A DNA stretch of 64,000 nt from an uncultured Magnetospirillum sp. (GTDB lineage Bacteria; Pseudomonadota; Alphaproteobacteria; Rhodospirillales; Magnetospirillaceae): positions 41,308-105,307 of the forward strand of contig NZ_CAINTR010000173.1 in NCBI RefSeq assembly GCF_903853455.1, read 5' to 3'. A program made the position numbers and the translations under genes. The stretch's first letter is position 1, and the number at the start of each line of letters is the position of its first letter. A model generated the notes under the pieces. That model was not told the origin of the DNA. It searched no databases and saw nothing but the letters and a program-made list of their open reading frames with translations. Below, one piece after another: positions 13,196-34,736 of the stretch.

Positions 13196-14635
13196 CTACC
13201 CCCCGACGCCGCAGACGAATTTCAGCGTCTTCAGGCGCTTGAAGGCCCAGCGCAGGCGGGTGCGGGTACGCTTGTCGTAGCGCTTGGGATCGATGCGGGC
13301 CGAGGGCGGAATGTCCATGGCGAGGTCGGCCAGCTGCTGTTCCAGCATGACCCGCAGCACCACTTCGCGCACCTCGATGAAATCGCGCAGGTCATCCTCG
13401 TGCAACGCGCCGGATTCCTGTAGGGCGGCAAAGCGCTCGTCGGTGCTGGTTGCCGGGACACGGGCGCGGATGGCGCGCAGACGCGCCGCGCTCACCAGCG
13501 GCAGCAGACCGAATTTCTTGGCGTTCAGGCGGCCGTGCTTGGTGACGAAATTGCCGAACAGGCCGAGCGAGCCGTCCATGCCGGCGACGTTCTGGGCCAG
13601 ATAGCGCATGAAGAAGGCCGATTGCGACGCCTTGTCCATGGCCATGGTCCGCAACTCCTCGGCCAGGGCGCGGTCGCCCCACACCGGCTGGAAGTCGAAG
13701 AAGATGTCGCAGTACATCACGGTCTGGTTCTCGACCGAATAGACCCACCGATGCACCTCGTCGCGCCACTCGTCCAGGCTCTTGCGCCATTTGGGCTCGC
13801 GCGCCATCACGCCCCCCAGGCAGAACGGAATGCCGGCCGCCTGGAGAATGTCGTTGAGACGCTTGCCCAATTCGGCGAACCACACGTCGTCGGCGGGCTT
13901 GCCGTCATGGACGATGGCGTTGTCCTGGTCGAAGGCCAGCAGGCTTTCGCCGCGACCGCCGGAACCAAGGATCAGCACGGCATAGCGGGCGGGAGCGCCG
14001 CCCCAACCGTCGTCCAGCAGCGACAGTTCCGCCAGTTCGGCGGCCCGCGCCGTCATGTCGCGCAGCACCAGCGAAATCACCGAAGCGATGTTGCGGGCGG
14101 TGACGCCTTCGTCCAGCAAGCCGCGCGCCAGCGTGGGCAGCTTGTCCAGGATTCCGTGCATGTCGTGGCCGTCGCGGGCATTCTCGACCGAATCGCCCAG
14201 CACCAGCGCCTCGGTGGCGCGGACCTTCAGCAGCGCCCGGCCGGTGATCATGCCCAGCGGCCGCTTGTCGTCATCGACCACCACCAGATGACGCAGGCCC
14301 ATGCGGGTCATGCGGGCCAGCGCCACATAGACGAAGGCGTCGGCCGGAACGGTGGCCACCGGCTTGGTCATGGCCTCGGCCAGCGTCACCTCGAGCCCGG
14401 ACGGCCCGTCATTGGACAGAACACGCAGCAGATCCCGCTCGGTGAAGATGCCGGCGGTCCGGCCGCCGTCGTCGATGCCGACGATGGAAGAAACGCGGGC
14501 CTCGTACATCTTGCGCACCGCCTCGGCAAGCGTAAGCGTGTCCGGCGCGGTCAAGACAGGAGTGCTCATCACCTCGCGAAGGCGATGGCGATAAGGAAAG
14601 CTGTCAATCTTAGCAAGTGCGGCAATGTCGTTCAT
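13196..14635 (-). CDS. CBS-domain / DUF294 nucleotidyltransferase-like protein
   Basis: Two CBS repeats (VMSTPVLTAPDTLTLAEAVRKM; AMTKPVATVPADAFVYVALARM), GlnE/GlnD-like LGSGGRGESLLAFDQDNAIV. Confidence 0.88.
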   Translation of the reverse strand: MNDIAALAKIDSFPYRHRLREVMSTPVLTAPDTLTLAEAVRKMYEARVSSIVGIDDGGRTAGIFTERDLLRVLSNDGPSGLEVTLAEAMTKPVATVPADAFVYVALARMTRMGLRHLVVVDDDKRPLGMITGRALLKVRATEALVLGDSVENARDGHDMHGILDKLPTLARGLLDEGVTARNIASVISLVLRDMTARAAELAELSLLDDGWGGAPARYAVLILGSGGRGESLLAFDQDNAIVHDGKPADDVWFAELGKRLNDILQAAGIPFCLGGVMAREPKWRKSLDEWRDEVHRWVYSVENQTVMYCDIFFDFQPVWGDRALAEELRTMAMDKASQSAFFMRYLAQNVAGMDGSLGLFGNFVTKHGRLNAKKFGLLPLVSAARLRAIRARVPATSTDERFAALQESGALHEDDLRDFIEVREVVLRVMLEQQLADLAMDIPPSARIDPKRYDKRTRTRLRWAFKRLKTLKFVCGVGG

Positions 14636-15135
14636 GGCGCGATCACGATAGTGGCCAATTGGAATTTTTCAACGGATTTCTGTCGGATAATGAATGTTTG
14701 CGAGTACGACGCCATATGCCGCGAAATGCTCTACGAGAACACCATAGGGTGTTTACTGGATACCAGCCACTCAGTGACGAATGCATCCAGCGATAAGCAC
14801 AAGTGTCACTTTCGGGGGACTAAGCAAAAACTATGACAAGCACGGGCCTTGTCTTTAGTAAATCGACATCACCTCAAAGGTGAATACCTACTTTCTCATT
14901 AGAATAACCTGTTCATTAAATGGGATGCATTCGTACGGAGTTGACGCCAAAGAGCACGGATGTTAATGAGAGACATAGCCTCAGGCAAGCTGTGGGCGTA
15001 TGTCGGGCACGCATAGGTGCTCCCACGCGCTCGCACGCTCTGGAACATTCAAACCGGCACCAAGACCGGAAATGGAAAACATCATTCGTCAGCCCCCTAG
15101 CGGGGTGCGCGGCGGTGACAAAGTGGAGGGTCAAA

Positions 15136-15468
15136 GTGAAATCACCTGCACAAACAGCTCAGCATCTTGCGAGCGTGGACCACATTCGGAACAATCCGAA
15201 GTTCGCCGAACTCGTCCGCAAGCGGACGACGTTCGCCTGGACGCTGTCCATCATCATCCTGGTCATCTATTATGGCTTCATTGCCGTCATCGCCTTCGAC
15301 AAGGCATGGCTGGGCACTCCGTTGGGTGCCGGCATTGTCACCACCATCGGCTTCCCGATCGGCGTGGGCGTGATCCTCGCCGCCATCATCCTGACCGGCG
15401 TCTACGTCTATCGCGCCAATGGCGAGTTCGACGAGATCAATCGCCAGATCATCGAGGAATCCCGCTGA
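15136..15468 (+). CDS. DUF485-type small membrane protein (symporter partner)
   Basis: [44 protein letters not shown] start with GGAGGG upstream; overlaps actP start. Confidence 0.85.
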
Positions 15469-17153
15469 TGAAGACGATCAAGACCGCATTCGCGTCCATG
15501 CTCGCCACCGGCGGCGTGGCGCTCATGAGCACCGCCGCCCTGGCGGCCGGTGCCGATCTCGGCGGCGCCGAGAAGCAGCCCACCAACTGGCATGCCATCG
15601 TCATGTTCGTCATCTTCGTGGGCATGACGCTCGGCATCACCTATTGGGCGGCCAAGCGCACCAAGACGGCGGCCGACTTCTATGCCGCCGGCGGCGGCAT
15701 CACCGGCTTCCAGAACGGTCTGGCCATCGCCGGCGACTACATGTCGGCGGCGTCGTTCCTGGGTATTTCCGCCCTGGTCTACGGGTCCGGCTATGACGGC
15801 CTGATCTTCTCGGTGGGTTGGCTGGTCGGCTGGCCGATCATCCTGTTCCTGATCGCCGAGCGTCTGCGCAACCTGGGCAAGTACACCTTCGCCGACGTGG
15901 CCAGCTATCGCCTCGCCCGCATGCCGGTCCGCACCTTCGCGGCCACCGGTTCGCTGATCGTGGTGATCTTCTACCTGATCGGCCAGATGGTCGGCGCGGG
16001 TCAGTTGATCAAGCTGCTGTTCGGCATGGACTACATCTACGCGGTCATGATCGTCGGCGCGCTGATGATGGTCTACGTCACCTTCGGCGGCATGGTCGCC
16101 ACCACCTGGGTGCAGATCATCAAGGCCGGTCTGCTGCTGTGCGGCGCGACCTTCATCGCCTTCGGCGTCATGAGCAAGTTCGGCTTCTCGTTCGAGGCGC
16201 TGTTCGTCAAGGCGGTCGAGGTTCATCCCAAGCACGGCGCCATCATGGCTCCAGGCGCCCTGGTCAGCAATCCGGTCGACGCCATTTCGCTGGGCATGGC
16301 CCTGATGTTCGGCACCGCCGGCCTGCCGCATATCCTGATGCGCTTCTTCACCGTTCCCGATGCCAAGGAAGCCCGCAAGTCGGTGTTCTACGCTACCGGC
16401 TTCATCGGCTACTTCTACATCCTGACCTTCATCATCGGCTTTGGCGCCATCACCCTAGTGGCCACCAATCCGGAGTACATCGACGCGGTCAAGGGCGGCA
16501 TGAACCTGAAGGGCGGCAACAACATGGCCGCGGTGTGGCTGGCCCACGCCATCGGCGGCGACATGTTCCTCGGCTTCATCTCGGCCGTGGCCTTCGCCAC
16601 CATCCTGGCGGTGGTGTCGGGTCTGACCCTGGCGGGCGCGTCGGCGATTTCGCACGACCTCTATGCCAGCGTCATCATGCATGGTCAGGCCACCGAAGGT
16701 AAGGAAGTGACCGTTTCGAAGATCGCCTCCATCTGCCTCGGCGTCATCGCCGTGCTGCTGGGTCTGATCTTCGAGAAGCAGAACGTGGCGTTCATCGTGG
16801 CGCTCACCTTCTCGGTCGCGGCTTCGGCCAACTTCCCCGTGCTGGTGCTGTCCATGTTCTGGGGCGGCTTGACCACCCGTGGCGCCGTCATCGGCGGCTC
16901 CATCGGCCTGCTCATGTCGGTCATCATGGTGGTGCTCAGCAAGGCGGTTTGGGTGCAGAGCTTCGGTTTCCAGGCCGAAATCTTCCCCTATGCCTATCCG
17001 GCCCTGTTCTCGGTGCCGGCCGCGTTCTTCTTCTCGTGGCTGTTCTCGATCCTCGACAACAGCCCGCGTGCCGCTCAGGAGCGTGCCGCGTTCGAGGCTC
17101 AGGCGATCCGGTCCGAGACCGGCCTGGGTGCCGAAGGCGCTGCCGCTCACTAA
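15468..17153 (+). CDS. actP: Cation/acetate symporter (SSS family)
   Basis: [36 protein letters not shown], long multi-TM protein with N-terminal signal-like segment; TGATG overlap with DUF485 gene. Confidence 0.88.
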
Positions 17154-19880: not shown

Positions 19881-21920
19881 CTACAGCACCCTTTGGCGCT
19901 CGTGCAGGATCATGGCGATGTCGAGGGTCTTGACCGCGTCGTCGAGGGTCAGGATGCCGCGCGCCTCCAGCGCCTCGATCTGGCGCAGCAGCACCGCCGC
20001 CGTCACCATGGAATCACCCAGCGCGGTATGACGCTCGGTGACGACGATACCGTAGCGGTCGCAGATCTCGTCCAGCGAGTGGCCGGCCTCGGCCCCATCC
20101 AGGAAGTTGGAGAAGATCATGGTGTCGAGTACCGGCGTGTCGAAACGGATCCCCATCTGACGCTCGCGCATGCGGAGGAACTTCAAGTCGAAGGCGGCGT
20201 TGTGCGCCACCAGGACCGAATCGGCGAGATAGGTGCGGAACTGGGGCAGCACCACGTCGAGCGGTGGCTTGTCCTTGACCATGTCGTCGGTGATGCCGTG
20301 GAAGCGGATCGACTCGGCGGGAATCGGCCGGCCGGGATTGACGATGCGGTTGAAGCTTTCCCCTGACAGGATGCGGCCGTTGACGATGCGCACGCCGGCG
20401 ATGGAGACCACCTGATCCCCCTGGGAGGGATGCAGCCCGGTGGTTTCGGTGTCGAACACCACGAAGGTCAGCGACCGCAGCGGCTGCGAGCCCATGGCGC
20501 CGGTGTCGCGCGCCTGCTCCAGCAGGGTCAGGTCGTAGAATTCAGGACGGCCGGGCAGAACCTGGCGGTCGTGGCCGTGCTGCTCGACCCCCTTGCGCAT
20601 GGGCAGCCGCAGGGCGCCACCGCCTTCGCGGCGTTCACGGATGATCTCGACGCCGCCGTGGTGCTGCAAGACATCGCGGACGGTCATGCCGCCCAGCGCC
20701 ACCAGCGGCTGGGCCAGCCAGCGGTCCAGCAACGCGCGCTCCACCGTGTCGCCGGCCCAGGAGAATTCGACCCAGGCGCCGCCGCCATCGCCGTCGCCGC
20801 TGCCGGCCGACAGATCGACCTCGGTCGCTCCGACCCGGTCGGCGGCGCGGCGGATCAGGGATTCCAGCGCCAGGACCAGCGAATGGGAATCGCCGTGCAG
20901 CCAGACCGGCAGGCCGGTCACCGTCCCCTTGAGATCCTCGCCCAGCCGGGTGACGATGAAGGACAGGAATTCGGTGGAGTTGATGTCGGCCATGGGCCAC
21001 CAGCCCGACAGCATCTTCTGGTAGCCTTCGGTCACCTGCTTGATGGCCTTGCCGATGGTGGCGCTTTCGCGGCGGACCACCGCCGCGTCATCGGCCGCCA
21101 TGAGGATGCGTTTCAGCGGCGCCTCCACTTCCTCGGCGACCTCGCGCAGCAGCGCCTCGCGGCTGACCAGCGCCGCCAATTGCGGTCCGGCATCGACCAG
21201 CGTCACCACATAGCCGGTCACCGCCCCGATCTCGTTGCGGATCAGGGTCATGCGCGCCTGCAACAGCGCCCGATCATCGACGCTGCCCACCAGGAACGGC
21301 ACCCCGCGCCCGCCCATGTCGGGACGGTTGCCCAGAACGTCGAACATGTGGATCACCGGGCCGCGCGCCATGGTCTCGAACAGCGAGCGCCCCAGCCCCA
21401 GCTCGGCGGTCTCGCGCAGGATGTCGAAGGCGACCTGGTTGTACAGCACCAGCTGATGGCGCTGGTTGCACACCACCACGCCCTCGTGCAGGTCGTTGAG
21501 GATGGCGGCCAGCCGGCTGGAGTTCTCCTCCGACTTGCGGGTCGCCGCCGACAGGCCCTCGGCCAGTTCGAGCCGCGCCTTGACCATGCGGACGCACACC
21601 TCGTTCACCGCCTCGGGCAGCGGCGAGACCACGAAATAGCGCTCGGGATCGACGCCGTCGCGGCCGCCGGTGCCGTAGGCGATGGCGCGCACCTCGGAGG
21701 CCATGCGGCGGATGCTGCGCATCACCAGAAAGTCGATGGTCTTCCATGAAACCGCGAACATGATGGCGGCGCCGGCCAGCGAGACCATCACCAGGGCCGT
21801 CAGTTCCTCGCGTACGCCACCGCCCTGGGACAGGCCGGAGGCGGCCGCGATGGTGACGACCACGTCGACGGCAAAAGCCGCCGCCAGCCAAGGAAAAGGC
21901 CCCCGCCATTTGACCGGCAC
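19881..21920 (-). CDS. Membrane PAS / degenerate histidine-kinase-like protein fused to DnaQ-type (DEDDh) 3'-5' exonuclease
   Basis: N-terminal TM segments, PAS-like ILNDLHEGVVVCNQRHQLVLYNQVAFDIL, kinase-like region with EEVEAPLKRI where HELRTPL is expected, C-terminal exonuclease VVFDTETTGLHP / LVAHNAAFDLKFL / HTALGDSMVTA. Confidence 0.85.
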   Translation of the reverse strand: MPVKWRGPFPWLAAAFAVDVVVTIAAASGLSQGGGVREELTALVMVSLAGAAIMFAVSWKTIDFLVMRSIRRMASEVRAIAYGTGGRDGVDPERYFVVSPLPEAVNEVCVRMVKARLELAEGLSAATRKSEENSSRLAAILNDLHEGVVVCNQRHQLVLYNQVAFDILRETAELGLGRSLFETMARGPVIHMFDVLGNRPDMGGRGVPFLVGSVDDRALLQARMTLIRNEIGAVTGYVVTLVDAGPQLAALVSREALLREVAEEVEAPLKRILMAADDAAVVRRESATIGKAIKQVTEGYQKMLSGWWPMADINSTEFLSFIVTRLGEDLKGTVTGLPVWLHGDSHSLVLALESLIRRAADRVGATEVDLSAGSGDGDGGGAWVEFSWAGDTVERALLDRWLAQPLVALGGMTVRDVLQHHGGVEIIRERREGGGALRLPMRKGVEQHGHDRQVLPGRPEFYDLTLLEQARDTGAMGSQPLRSLTFVVFDTETTGLHPSQGDQVVSIAGVRIVNGRILSGESFNRIVNPGRPIPAESIRFHGITDDMVKDKPPLDVVLPQFRTYLADSVLVAHNAAFDLKFLRMRERQMGIRFDTPVLDTMIFSNFLDGAEAGHSLDEICDRYGIVVTERHTALGDSMVTAAVLLRQIEALEARGILTLDDAVKTLDIAMILHERQRVL

Positions 21921-22029
21921 CGTCTCGCCTCCTCGTTCATTCTGGCCCTGCCTTTATCACGCCGTGCGGAGCGGTCCGCGTCAACCCCGGATATGGCCTC
22001 GACGCATGATCAAAGCGAAACAGATGCCT

Positions 22030-22078
22030 CCGACGGGCGAATTTAGGGGCGCCCGGCGACTGAGGGACGAAAAGGGTA
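22030..22078. repeat. Dispersed intergenic repeat, partial copy E
   Basis: gacgggcgaatttaggggcgcccggcgactgagggacgaaaag; shares CGCCGGGC..CTGAGGGAC core with copy A. Confidence 0.5.
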
Positions 22079-22079
22079 C

Positions 22080-22304
22080 TCACACCATGTCCGCGATCCC
22101 GTAGCGGGCGGAGATCAGTGACAACGCGGCCCCGACCGTCTGGCCGCCGTAATAGCTTTGCAGCATCAGCTTGGGCTCGATGCCCAGCGAGCGGAGCGAC
22201 TGCCCCAGTCGGTCCTTCAGGCGGGTGTCCACATCGGCCGCCCACAGAGTATAGCCGCTGTCGAACAGGGGGTAGGACATCTCCTCCTCCATCGGCCGGA
22301 CCAA
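22080..22304 (-). CDS. Small hypothetical protein
   Basis: MSYPLFDSGYTLWAADVDTRLKDRLGQSLRSLGIEPKLMLQSYYGGQTVGAALSLISARYGIADMV; coherent composition, several possible starts (22304, 22292, 22280). Confidence 0.45.
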   Translation of the reverse strand: MVRPMEEEMSYPLFDSGYTLWAADVDTRLKDRLGQSLRSLGIEPKLMLQSYYGGQTVGAALSLISARYGIADMV

Positions 22305-22357
22305 TCCCGAGCCATGAAGACAGCATGCCCCCCCATCATGACGTCATGACGGCAGGA

Positions 22358-26701: not shown

Positions 26702-29209
26702 CTAAAGCGCGCCCCAGATCTCGCGGGCGTATTCGGTGACGGTCCGGTCCGACGAGAACTTTCCCATGCGCGCCACGTTGAGGATGGCCTTGCGGGTCCA
26801 ATCCACCGGGTCGCGGTAGGTCTGGTCCACCCGCTCCTGCGCCGCCATGTAGAGCGGATAATCGGCGGTCAGCAGATAGTGGTCGCCTCCCACCGTCAGC
26901 ATGTCGACCAGCGGCTTATAGCGGTCCGGCTGATCCGCCGAGAAGAAGCCCGAGCCGATCATCTCCAGCGCCAGGCTCAGTTCCTTGTCGGCCTTGGCGG
27001 CGGCGACGGCGTCGAAACCGTCGATGCGGTAGCGCGCCACCTCCTGGGCGGTCAGGCCGAACAGGAACATGTTCTCCTCGCCGACCTCCTCGCAGATTTC
27101 CACATTGGCGCCATCCCAGGTGCCGACGGTCAGCGCCCCGTTCATGGACATCTTCATGTTGCCGGTGCCCGAGGCCTCGGTGCCGGCGGTGGAGATCTGC
27201 TCTGACAGGTCGGCGGCCGGCATCACCAGTTCGGCGGTCGAGACATTGTAGTTAGGCACGAACACCAGCTTGAGCTTGCCGCCCACCAGGGGGTCGTTGT
27301 TGACCACCTCCGAGATGTCGTTGACCAGCTTGATGATCAGCTTGGCGGTGTGATAGCCCGGCGCCGCCTTGCCGCCGATGATGACGGTGCGCGGCACCGG
27401 ATTCAGCAGCGGATTGGAGCGGATGCGGGCGTAGCGCGTCACCACGTGCAGCAGGTTGAGCAGTTGGCGCTTGTATTCGTGGATGCGCTTGACCTGGACG
27501 TCGAACAGCGAGTTGACGTCCACGTCCACGCCCAGCCGCTGCGACATCATCACCGCCAGGGCTTCCTTGTTGGCGCGCTTGACCGCCGCGAATTCGGCGC
27601 AGAAGGCGGGGTCGTCGGCCAAGGGCTCCAGCTTGCGCAGGTGATCGAGATTGGTGATCCAAGCGTCGCCGATGCGCGCGGTGATCAGCTTGGCCAGCCG
27701 GGGATTGGCCGCCAGCAGCCATCGCCGGGGGGTGACGCCGTTGGTCTTGTTGGTGATCTTGCCGGGCGACAGGTGTTCGAAGTCGGAGAAGATGGTGCTT
27801 TTCATCAGCCCGGTATGGATGGCGGCGACGCCGTTGACCTTGTGGCTGCCGATCACCGCCAGATGGGCCATGCGCACCCGCTGGCCACCCTCCTCGCCGA
27901 TCAGCGACACCCGGCGCAGCAGCTCGCTGTCGCCGGGATGGCGGTAGCGGACCCCTTGCAGGAATTCGTGGTTGAGTTGGAAGACGATCTCCAGATGGCG
28001 GGGCAGCACCCGCTGGAACAGCTCCACCGCCCAGGTTTCCAGCGCCTCGGGCAGCAGGGTGTGGTTGGTGTAGGCGCAACAGCGCTGGGTGATGGACCAG
28101 GCGCGGTCCCATTCGATCTGGTGTTCGTCCACCAGCACCCGCATCAGCTCGGCCACCACCATGGCCGGATGGGTGTCGTTCAACTGGATCGCCACCTTGT
28201 CCGGCAGCTTGTCCCAGTCCGAATGGCTTTTGCGGAAGCGGCCCAGGATGTCCTGGAGCGAGGCGGCGACGAAGAAGTACTCCTGCTTGAAACGCAGCTC
28301 CTTGCCCCGATCCGTCGTGTCGGAGGGATACAGCACCTTGGACAGGGTCTCGGACTCGTTCTTGTCGCGGACCGCCTCGATGTAATTGCCGGCGTTGAAA
28401 TATTTCAGGTCGAACTCGCGGGTCGACTTGGCCGACCACAGGCGCAGATTGTTGACCACCTTGCCGCCGTAACCGGGGACCGGCACGTCGAAGGCCATGG
28501 CCATGACCTCCTCGGCGTCCACCCATTGCGAACGGGTATGGCCGAGTACGTCGCGGAAGTGGATGACCCGGCCGCCGAACCGCACCGGATAGATCACGCC
28601 GGGACGCGGGAATTCCCACGGATTGCCGTAGCGCAGCCAGTTCTCCGGGCTTTCCACCTGCCAGCCGTTTTCAACATGCTGGGTGAACATGCCGTAATCG
28701 TAGCGGATGCCGTAGCCATAGCCGGCCACGCCGACGGTGGCCATGGAATCCAGCAGGCAGGCGGCAAGCCGCCCCAGGCCGCCATTGCCCAGCGCCGCCT
28801 CGACCTCCCAGGCGGCGACCTCGTCGAAGTCGTGGCCCAGTTCGGCGATGGCGTCGCGAACGTTCTGGTAGATGCCGAGATTGATCAGGCTGTTGACCAG
28901 GGTTCGCCCGATCAGGAACTCCATGGACAGGTAATAGACCCGCTTGCGGTCGTCCTGATAATAGCGGTTGAGGGTCGGCATCCAGTGTTCGGTGACCCGG
29001 TCACGCACCGCATGGGCGGCCGCCATGAACCAGTCGCGCGCCGTGGCGTTGATCGGCTCCTTGCCGACCGTGTAGAGAAGATGGCTGCACAGGGCGTATT
29101 TGATGCTTTCCACATCATCGCCCAGCAGCCTCACCACTGGAGGCCCGATCCGCTTCATGAAATTCCTTCCCGCCCATAACGAGCCAATCATCCCACCGCA
29201 TTCGGCCAT
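26702..29209 (-). CDS. glgP: Glycogen phosphorylase
   Basis: YYLSMEFLIGRTLVNSLINLG, NGGLGRLAACLLDSMAT, EASGTGNMKMSMNGALTVGTWDGANVEI (PLP site). Confidence 0.95.
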   Translation of the reverse strand: MAECGGMIGSLWAGRNFMKRIGPPVVRLLGDDVESIKYALCSHLLYTVGKEPINATARDWFMAAAHAVRDRVTEHWMPTLNRYYQDDRKRVYYLSMEFLIGRTLVNSLINLGIYQNVRDAIAELGHDFDEVAAWEVEAALGNGGLGRLAACLLDSMATVGVAGYGYGIRYDYGMFTQHVENGWQVESPENWLRYGNPWEFPRPGVIYPVRFGGRVIHFRDVLGHTRSQWVDAEEVMAMAFDVPVPGYGGKVVNNLRLWSAKSTREFDLKYFNAGNYIEAVRDKNESETLSKVLYPSDTTDRGKELRFKQEYFFVAASLQDILGRFRKSHSDWDKLPDKVAIQLNDTHPAMVVAELMRVLVDEHQIEWDRAWSITQRCCAYTNHTLLPEALETWAVELFQRVLPRHLEIVFQLNHEFLQGVRYRHPGDSELLRRVSLIGEEGGQRVRMAHLAVIGSHKVNGVAAIHTGLMKSTIFSDFEHLSPGKITNKTNGVTPRRWLLAANPRLAKLITARIGDAWITNLDHLRKLEPLADDPAFCAEFAAVKRANKEALAVMMSQRLGVDVDVNSLFDVQVKRIHEYKRQLLNLLHVVTRYARIRSNPLLNPVPRTVIIGGKAAPGYHTAKLIIKLVNDISEVVNNDPLVGGKLKLVFVPNYNVSTAELVMPAADLSEQISTAGTEASGTGNMKMSMNGALTVGTWDGANVEICEEVGEENMFLFGLTAQEVARYRIDGFDAVAAAKADKELSLALEMIGSGFFSADQPDRYKPLVDMLTVGGDHYLLTADYPLYMAAQERVDQTYRDPVDWTRKAILNVARMGKFSSDRTVTEYAREIWGAL

Positions 29210-29257
29210 GAAACAGCGGGATCGGCAAGAGACGACATGACGACAATCTGTAATCTT

Positions 29258-31498
29258 CTATGAATTTCGCCGCGTTGATCGGGTCTTCAACCCTTCGGCC
29301 AAGGCGAGGATGCGATTGTCTTTCAGTATCACCGCAACCTCGTCATTGAAGCGGCGCCGCCAATTGGGATGCTGAACCGTGGTGCCGGGAAGATTCATCT
29401 GGAGATCGAGCCCCATGGCGTCTTCCATCTGCACCATCGCCAGCCGCGCCGCCGACCGGCCGAGATAGGCATGGGCGGCGGCGGCCAGCTCGACCGCCTG
29501 GGCATCGGTCAAGACGCCGGAGGACGGGAAACCCCCGCCTTCCTCGCTCCGACCATCCAGCAGCCCTTCGCCGGCCAGGGCGGCGACCATGGCGATGCGG
29601 TCCCTGTGGCGGGCGTCGCGCTCCTCGGCGGCCTGATCGGCGCGGGGATAAAGGTCGAGCTTTTCCCGCTGGTCGATGTCCTTGCCCCCCCACCAGCCGC
29701 GCGCCGACGGCAGGTCGTGGGTGGCGAAGATGGCCAGCGCCTGGACGTCGAACCGCGACGGCGGGCGTATCCTGCCATCCTCGATCTTCTCGAACACCAT
29801 CACCCGGTAGGCGAAGATGCCCATGCGATCCATGCGCTCGCGGAAGCCCTCGGGTACGGTTCCCAGGTCCTCGCCGATCACCAGGCAGCGGTTGCGGCGG
29901 CTTTCCAGCGCCACCAGCCGGAACAGGTCGTCCACCGGATAGCGCACATAGGCGCCCTGATCCGCCGGCAGTCCCGGCGGCACCCAATAGAGCCGCTGCA
30001 ACGCCATGGCGTGATCGAGACGCAGGGCGCCGGCATGGCGCATATTGGCGGCCATCACCCCGATGAACGGGGCGTAGGCGTGTTCGCGCAGCGTGATGGG
30101 GTTGAACGGCACCAACCCCCAATCCTGCCCCTTGAGGGCCAGCGGATCGGGCGGCGCCCCCACCGAGACGCCCAGCGCCAGGGCGTCCTGCTCGGCCCAG
30201 GCCTCGCCGCCGTCGCCGGCGATGCCCACCGCCAGATCGCGGTAGAGCCCCAGGGCGGCGCCGGCCTCGGTGCCGGCCCGATGGGCCGCCGCCAACTGCC
30301 GGTCGGCGACGAATTGCAGCCACTGGAAGAACTCGACCCGCTCCATGTTCTGGGTGGCAAACGCCACCACCTCGGGCGAGCCCGGCCGCCGCAGACCTTC
30401 CGGCCATTGCCGCCAATAGCCGTCGCCGTCGCGCTCGAACTTTTCGTGCAGGGCCTCGAACACCGCGAAATTGCGTGCCCGCTCGCCGCCCGCCGCCTGG
30501 AAGTCACGGAACGCCTGCCCCCGCTCGGTGGTCTCCGGCTCCAGATGGGTCTTGCGGAACCAGCGGTACAGGACCTCCAGCATGGGCCGCGCCAGTTGCG
30601 CCACGTCCATGTACTCGATCAGGCCATAGCCGCGCACGCGGGCCAGCGACGCCTGGAAGCCGGGCGAGGCGAACATCCGCCGGGCTTCCTGGCACTCGGT
30701 GAATTCGGGGATGGCCTCCACGTCGATATAGGTGGTGTTGAGGAAACGGCGCGACGACGGCGAATAGGGGCTGAAGCGGTCGGGATGGCTGGGAAACAGC
30801 GCATGCAGCGGATTGACGCCGACGCACGACGCCCCCAGCCGGGCGGTGCCGGCCGCCAGCTCGGCCAGACCGCCATAGTTGCCCACGCCCCAATCGTCGG
30901 GCGTGCGCAGGGCGTAGACCTGGGTGGCGACGCCCCAGGCGCCGGGTCCGTCGGCCACGATCTCGGGAAGGAAGGCCCTGGCCGGGGTGACGATCAGCGC
31001 CATTTCGGCGGATTGGCCCCCGCTCCCCGCCTGTCCCTCGACGCCGGTCAGCACCAGACGGTGGTAGCCGATGGGCGGCAAGGCCGGCAGGTCGAGCCAG
31101 CGGCGATGGACCAGGGCGTCGTCGACCTCGTGTTCCTCGCCCCACCGCAGCTCGCGGGCGATGAAGCGTCCGCGATGGACGATGCCCAGTTCCTCTTCCA
31201 GGGCCCATTCGAATTCCTGATGGTCGGCGGCGTGCGGCAAGGTGATGGAGATGGCCGGCGGCGCCGAATGCTCCTCGATCACCAGCACCGATTCCAGCCA
31301 CCGCCGCCAGGGCCGCGCCAGCAGGTCGCGCAGCGAGGCGCGAACCTCGTCGTCGTCGCCGGCCGGCAACCCCATGGCGGCGAGGAATACCCGCTTGGTC
31401 TCGGCCGGCACCACCCGCCATTCGCCGAAGAAGTCCCACCAGCCATCCTCGATGCCCGCCAGCCGCGCCAAATGATCAAGCGCCGGTGTCCCGCTCAT
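29258..31498 (-). CDS. malQ: 4-alpha-glucanotransferase
   Basis: YALRTPDDWGVGNYGGLAEL, RLDHAMALQRLYWVP, VIGEDLGTVPEGFRERM, FATHDLPSARGWW. Confidence 0.93.
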   Translation of the reverse strand: MSGTPALDHLARLAGIEDGWWDFFGEWRVVPAETKRVFLAAMGLPAGDDDEVRASLRDLLARPWRRWLESVLVIEEHSAPPAISITLPHAADHQEFEWALEEELGIVHRGRFIARELRWGEEHEVDDALVHRRWLDLPALPPIGYHRLVLTGVEGQAGSGGQSAEMALIVTPARAFLPEIVADGPGAWGVATQVYALRTPDDWGVGNYGGLAELAAGTARLGASCVGVNPLHALFPSHPDRFSPYSPSSRRFLNTTYIDVEAIPEFTECQEARRMFASPGFQASLARVRGYGLIEYMDVAQLARPMLEVLYRWFRKTHLEPETTERGQAFRDFQAAGGERARNFAVFEALHEKFERDGDGYWRQWPEGLRRPGSPEVVAFATQNMERVEFFQWLQFVADRQLAAAHRAGTEAGAALGLYRDLAVGIAGDGGEAWAEQDALALGVSVGAPPDPLALKGQDWGLVPFNPITLREHAYAPFIGVMAANMRHAGALRLDHAMALQRLYWVPPGLPADQGAYVRYPVDDLFRLVALESRRNRCLVIGEDLGTVPEGFRERMDRMGIFAYRVMVFEKIEDGRIRPPSRFDVQALAIFATHDLPSARGWWGGKDIDQREKLDLYPRADQAAEERDARHRDRIAMVAALAGEGLLDGRSEEGGGFPSSGVLTDAQAVELAAAAHAYLGRSAARLAMVQMEDAMGLDLQMNLPGTTVQHPNWRRRFNDEVAVILKDNRILALAEGLKTRSTRRNS

Positions 31499-32576
31499 GC
31501 TTCGCCTCCGTCTTGTGGAATGGAAGCGACCCGTTCTTCCTGCCCATCCGCATAGGTCCTCTTCGTCCGGCTCTGGGCCTTGGCTTCGATCCGCCGCAGT
31601 TCCGCATCGATGTCCCGGTCATGCTCGACCTCGGCGGCTTGGCGCTCGGCCTCCTGGCGCGAGACATCGAAGCTGGCGTAGCGCTCATCGACAAGCTTCA
31701 ACATGTGGTCATGACTGACGCTGCCGGCATGCGTCAGCACCGCGCGGTCGGCCAGCTTCAGATACTGGTCAACGAAGCCGAGCCATTCGGCCATGGTGGT
31801 TTGCTGGCGGCGCATGGCGCGGTCGGTGGCGAGATCCAGGAAGGCGGATACCAGCAGGTTCAGTTCCTTGACCTCGGCCTCGCCCAGATAGTTCTTGGCG
31901 GTGGCGACGTCGATCTTACGCACGCGGCCTCCCGACCACGTGGTCAGGCCCATATTGGCCTTGGCCGGATCGGCGCGGTTCAGGATCAGTTCGGCGGCGG
32001 TATGGCCGGTCACCGCCCACAGCATCTTGTTCTGGATAGTCTGAAAGAACTGCCGGGCAGTCTCGTCGGTGCGGTCATAGTCCACGGCGGTCGCGAACAG
32101 GTCACGGATCTTCTGGTAGAACCGCTTCTCCGAGGCTCGGATCTCCCGGACCCGTTCCAGCAACTCGTCGAAGTAGTCCCAGCCATCCGCCGGTTCCTTC
32201 AAACGCCGGTCATCCAGGGCGAAGCCCTTGATCAGGTAGTCCTGCAAGACGGTGGTGGCCCACCGGCGGAACTGGGTGCCGCGTGGGCTGCGGACGCGAT
32301 AGCCCACGGCCAGGATCATCTCCAGCCGATAGGCGGTGATTCTGCGCTGAACCTGCCGCGCGCCCTCGGTTTGAACTGTCAAATATTCTTTGACAGTTGC
32401 CTCGCCGCGCAACTCGCCCTCAGCCAAGATGTTGCGAATATGGACGCTGACGTTCTGCTTGGTGGTCTGGAACAGGTCCGCCATCTCGGCCTGACTCAGC
32501 CAGACGGTGCCGTCCACGACCTCAAGGCGGAGCCGGGTGCGTCCATCCTCGGTGTTGTAGAGGATAACCTCCCCCG

Positions 32577-32580
<4 letters not shown>
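31495..32580 (-). CDS. RhuM-family protein
   Basis: VWLSQAEMADLFQTTKQNVSVHIRNILAEGEL, YRLEMILAVGYRVRSPRGTQFRRWATTVLQDYLIKGFALDDRRL; 4-nt overlaps with glgX stop and malQ start. Confidence 0.88.

Positions 32581-34732
<2,152 letters not shown>

Positions 34733-34736
<4 letters not shown>

Follow-up and report, generated by a model that had tools for sequence, protein, structure and literature searches.

The Pseudomonas putida protein PP_0353 belongs to the MxtR/ErdR (CrbS/CrbR) module, where its gene shares an operon with pp_0354, a CBS gene targeted by MxtR/ErdR; deletion of PP_0353 harms growth on pyruvate but not on acetate (PMC9927547), and ErdR binds the pp_0354 promoter (PMC8402216). DivL of Caulobacter is a pseudokinase that reads the phosphorylation of DivK, and its DHp-CA part is often absent from organisms without DivK (PMC4211667). 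The protein described here resembles both. It is encoded in a 64,000-nucleotide stretch of DNA from an uncultured Magnetospirillum sp. (contig NZ_CAINTR010000173.1), which we call the window.

The relative PP_0353 is, like the window protein, an RNase_T exonuclease beside a CBS/DUF294-type gene and is functionally tied to ActP/YjcH. Its published description is only that of an RNase_T protein, whereas the window protein has transmembrane (TM) helices, HAMP, PAS and a pseudokinase; the PP_0353 module also has MxtR/CrbS, whereas no SLC5-histidine kinase was found in the window genome. DivL shares with the window protein the TM/PAS parts and a DHp-CA fold in which the His is replaced (fold match 4q20), and with the wider family the frequent absence of DHp-CA where the receiver partner is absent; unlike the window protein it has no nuclease, and its His is replaced by Tyr. 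Receiver binding is experimental for DivL, and in the exonuclease family we infer it. The order and fold of HAMP-PAS-DHp-CA are those of WalK/VicK, from which the window protein differs in lacking the catalytic His and the N and G boxes and in its added exonuclease. That exonuclease has the DEDDh fold and all catalytic residues of the PolC exonuclease domain and DNA Pol III epsilon, but it stands outside any polymerase and is membrane-anchored. Proteins annotated as 'Exonuclease domain-containing protein' in Paracoccus, Cupriavidus, Marivivens and others share the whole architecture of the window protein, at about 30-34% identity; their public annotation names the exonuclease and leaves the pseudokinase unmentioned, and our literature search found no paper naming a pseudokinase-exonuclease fusion.

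Architecture of the protein

The features of the gene and its conserved neighbours are given in Table 1. The position in the preliminary description, 19881-21920, was correct, and the gene reads from the minus strand. Its start, VPVKWRGPFPWLA, is kept across the genus in the congeneric copies. An upstream ORF of 129 aa (21937-22326) was considered as a gene and rejected, being of odd composition and without a family match.

Table 1. Features of the pseudokinase-exonuclease gene and its conserved neighbours, in window coordinates
Feature	Position	Strand	Basis or remark
Whole gene, 679 aa, GTG start at 21920, stop at 19881	19881..21920	-	
TM helix 1, residues 8-29	21834..21899	-	hydropathy and model helix
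TM helix 2, residues 38-62	21735..21809	-	hydropathy and model helix
PAS domain, residues 147-243	21192..21482	-	model; Pfam PAS in homologues
Pseudo-DHp helical hairpin, residues 245-306	21003..21188	-	model, fold match, homologue alignment
Codon of Glu263, the phospho-acceptor His position	21132..21134	-	E/D in 47/60, His 0/60
Pseudo-CA (HATPase-like), residues 311-443, without N or G boxes	20592..20990	-	model and homologues
Linker motif RPEFYDLTL, residues 458-466	20523..20549	-	R and D each in 55/60 homologues
DEDDh exonuclease, RNase_T, residues 487-644	19989..20462	-	Pfam E 6e-37; catalytic residues invariant
DUF294 nucleotidyltransferase-like/CBS protein, conserved partner	13196..14635	-	
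DUF485 membrane protein (YjcH-like), domain at residues 91-179	14920..15468	+	
ActP cation/acetate symporter	15513..17153	+	ORF from 15000; homology from near residue 172

Pfam recognises RNase_T and, weakly, PAS in the window protein and gives no HisKA or HATPase match there. With a 17-member homologue alignment, PAS was found in 15 of the 17 (best E 1e-6) and HisKA weakly in three. A family profile run against the PDB matched VicK (4i5s) over profile positions 63-470, that is HAMP-PAS-DHp-CA, with E = 7e-18, and also WalK and EnvZ. The AlphaFold2 model, built with 60 homologues as input (mean pLDDT 87), runs in the order two TM helices, long helix, PAS, two-helix DHp, CA, disordered stretch and exonuclease; in model numbering, to which one is added to obtain protein numbering, the TM helices are 8-29 and about 35-58, the PAS is 146-242, the DHp helices are 244-273 and 278-305, the CA is 310-442 and the exonuclease is 484-652. 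Foldseek matched the first half of the model to WalK, VicK, FixL chimeras, EnvZ and DivL, and the C-terminal half to exonucleases (PolC, DNA Pol III epsilon, DinG), the DEDDh matches including 9qrn, 2gui and 2p1j. The DHp-CA fold is thus present by profile search, AlphaFold and Foldseek alike, and these comparisons, with Pfam, bear out the earlier suggestion that a membrane-anchored, degenerate WalK-like kinase is fused to an exonuclease. The region is confirmed as HAMP/coiled coil, PAS and kinase-like DHp/CA on two TM helices, followed by a linker and a DnaQ-type DEDDh exonuclease. In one congeneric copy (G008:C1:1671674-1673701) an in-frame TAA follows residue 246, where PAS meets DHp, and would split the protein unless it reflects a sequencing error.

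A dead kinase and an exonuclease with all catalytic residues

The preliminary description had read the phospho-acceptor His as replaced by Glu and the N and G boxes as missing, and the homologues agree on each count. At the phospho-acceptor position, Glu263 in the window protein, 28 of 60 homologues have Glu, 19 Asp, 13 another residue and none His. The N-box Asn occurs in 0/60, and the glycine-rich G-box pattern is absent from the same alignment. The H-box Arg is present in 51/60 homologues and absent from the window protein. Judged from these residues, the kinase is dead across the whole family, a point that the preliminary description of the single protein had missed. Five Desulfuromonadales loci likewise have a dead DHp, several of them with Gln for Arg at the H-box.

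The exonuclease looks alive: all five DEDDh residues (D490, E492, D578, H631, D636) are invariant in the 60 homologues, in keeping with the full set of motifs noted earlier. The linker motif, in the form RPEFYDF, is nearly invariant as well and is also retained in short forms that have no kinase. A membrane-anchored degenerate kinase joined to an exonuclease with full catalytic motifs makes a gated nuclease plausible.

An activity like that of oligoribonuclease (Orn), for example on pGpG, had been proposed for this domain. Relatedness does not support assignment to Orn or the pGpG hydrolases: among solved structures the domain is nearest to the exonucleases of PolC, DNA Pol III epsilon and DinG, and Orn is not among the PDB or NCBIfam matches listed. 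The same relationships make a polynucleotide 3' end a likelier substrate than dinucleotides. That polynucleotide might be RNA: the authors of the pp_0353 study proposed RNA decay for that protein (PMC9927547), and the window lineage retains the membrane and PAS parts that could sense a signal. The exonuclease would then lower particular mRNAs as the cell turns to acetate or pyruvate, and PAS/HAMP signals would gate it. We consider this unlikely, as the domain is most closely related to exonucleases that act on DNA and no RNA-binding part was recognised.

Distribution and variants of the family

At least 340 relatives were found in one scan of genome contigs, and the taxa among the matches listed include Alpha-, Beta- and Gammaproteobacteria, Desulfuromonadales, Acidobacteriota, Nitrospirota and Bacteroidota. 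The distribution is patchy at E 1e-75 (27/387 genomes of the window's class and 15/276 of a second proteobacterial class), while all 16 congeners tested have the gene. Since the same architecture recurs in many genomes, at about 29-89% identity, the fusion is not a matter of chance.

Other members are shorter or differently fused. Five loci encode TM-TM-linker-exonuclease, Rhodobacterales and others have a TM-HAMP-PAS-linker-exonuclease form, one locus encodes a soluble form, and L239 and L242 are fusions to an EamA transporter (Pfam EamA plus RNase_T in L239). The sensor modules are thus interchangeable, and the constant parts are the exonuclease and, as a rule, a membrane anchor. Related exonuclease domains lie C-terminally in proteins of about 500 aa at L239, L240, L242 and L243, the first of which is near DUF294-type genes. 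One congener carries a second full-length paralogue, 39% identical (G007:C6:308316-313301), and a further related exonuclease ORF about 2 kb from it (G007:C6:313439-313984).

The gene lies in an acetate/monocarboxylate neighbourhood

The family gene sits in an acetate/monocarboxylate signalling neighbourhood, which the preliminary description had also missed. In the window, the genes for the DUF294/CBS protein, DUF485 and ActP all lie within about 7 kb of the exonuclease gene, so that the PP_0353-type neighbours are present. The DUF485 domain begins at residue 91 of its ORF, and the true start of that gene may therefore be internal. The gap between the DUF294 and exonuclease genes is 5.2 kb in the window as against 17-199 bp in eight related loci, a difference that marks the locus as rearranged in the window and in its nearest relative. 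The adjoining minus-strand genes at 26702-34736 form a glycogen/maltodextrin cluster (glycogen phosphorylase, 4-alpha-glucanotransferase and an alpha-amylase-family protein).

We examined 157 loci with enough flank, selected on the exonuclease itself, whatever lay beside it. In raw counts, DUF294-type genes occur at 121, ActP/DUF485 at 84, SLC5-histidine kinases at 68 and adjacent single-domain receivers at 92; at least one of DUF294-type, ActP/DUF485 and SLC5-histidine kinase occurs at 140 of the 157, again a raw count. The SLC5 part of the neighbouring kinase matches PDB 10ED, the CbrA SLC5-STAC structure (PMC13022988), at E 9e-67. This kinase is of the CbrA/CrbS type, with HisKA and HATPase intact. 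The receivers keep the phospho-Asp in 94/95, the Lys in 95/95 and the acidic pocket. At the five Desulfuromonadales loci the usual acetate-module neighbours are absent within the flank.

The DUF294 protein combines a nucleotidyltransferase fold of the Pol-beta type with CBS or cNMP domains, and its frequency beside the exonuclease makes a nucleotide-adding and nucleotide-removing pair an attractive rival reading, if a somewhat unlikely one. The DUF294 protein would add nucleotides to RNA or protein, the exonuclease would trim them, and the sensor would only place the enzyme at the membrane and tune it. Besides being the commonest neighbour (121/157), the DUF294-type gene lies within 1 kb of the exonuclease gene in 18/18 PAS-only forms and 7/8 forms without PAS, and the partner is retained even where the exonuclease is soluble or fused to EamA; in Pseudomonas the exonuclease and partner genes form an operon (PMC9927547). 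Against this reading, a search of the flanks at 151 loci found no DUF294 gene at 36 of them.

Receiver genes accompany the dead DHp

With broken and duplicate loci removed, the test set held 104 loci with a recognisable DHp and 47 in which it was lost or eroded. A new observation is that adjacency of the receiver gene is tied to the presence of the dead DHp: a receiver is adjacent at 88/104 loci with the DHp and at 0/47 without it or with an eroded one, while 16 loci have the DHp and no adjacent receiver. The receiver might merely follow the SLC5 kinase. We rejected this as the whole story, since at loci lacking that kinase the receiver still tracks the DHp (26/40 with it, 0/44 with it lost or eroded). 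At two loci (L233, L234) the receiver sits beside the SLC5 kinase though the exonuclease has no DHp; it can thus remain with the kinase alone and must have at least one further partner.

On the best exonuclease tree, which is poorly resolved, 18 independent pairs could be drawn, of which 13 agree and none oppose (p = 2.4e-4). This count scored one locus, L199, as DHp-less, and its correction can remove only one non-informative pair. On strongly supported branches alone there are 5 independent pairs and joint loss is not significant (p = 0.125).

The window lineage lacks the proposed partners

A partner receiver, such as DivL has in DivK, accompanies the gene in much of the family; in the window's own genome none was found, the best match being a PhoB-like gene. 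A search of this genome with the SLC5 half of the SLC5-histidine kinase gave no match at E 1e-3, only kinase-core matches, so that the CrbS/MxtR control of the PP_0353-type module was not found. The histidine-kinase core matches number about a hundred in 5.2 Mb, which is high.

Compared with its homologues, the window protein has a DHp that is shorter by about 20 residues. On the window lineage dN/dS is highest in the DHp (0.41), followed by CA (0.29), PAS (0.23) and exonuclease (0.12), and the membrane and PAS parts are retained. The short DHp and its high dN/dS fit relaxed constraint after partner loss, with PAS/HAMP, linker and exonuclease still held. Loss of receiver and SLC5 kinase together with DHp erosion makes control by PAS/HAMP alone probable in this lineage, and the dead kinase probably arose as a docking site for a receiver since lost in the window bacterium.

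Purifying selection on PAS and CA also argues against a housekeeping or defence DNA exonuclease to which a decayed sensor became fused by accident. The exonuclease is related to DnaQ proteins generally, and PADLOC profiles of CRISPR-associated DEDDh proteins match it; that match, however, is to the generic DEDDh domain, and no defence genes were recognised nearby, the acetate neighbourhood being conserved instead. We regard this explanation as highly improbable.

Discussion

The reading we put first, tentatively and at a little under an even chance, is that the protein is a membrane DEDDh 3'-5' exonuclease of an acetate/monocarboxylate-response module, gated by a WalK-like sensor platform without kinase activity, the receiver being the ancestral input and PAS/HAMP the present one. 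Across most of the family, the stand-alone receiver would get its phosphate from the SLC5-histidine kinase of CbrA/CrbS type encoded next to it; the phosphorylated receiver would most likely bind the pseudo-DHp/CA, as DivK~P binds DivL, and its binding would switch the exonuclease via the linker. In the window lineage, which has neither receiver nor SLC5 kinase and whose DHp is short and under relaxed constraint, control would probably rest with PAS/HAMP alone and be coordinated with the DUF294 protein and ActP.

The specific wiring, in which a response regulator phosphorylated by the SLC5 kinase docks on the dead kinase and directly switches a membrane 3'-5' exonuclease, with the window lineage at a stage after receiver loss, is possible but doubtful. 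If it is true, the output of this two-component system would be nucleic-acid or nucleotidyl trimming and not transcription. The family sits with acetate and pyruvate genes and one member has a growth phenotype; that receiver and dead DHp are lost together points to a specific wiring that can be put to the test, in which a nuclease would be the direct two-component output.
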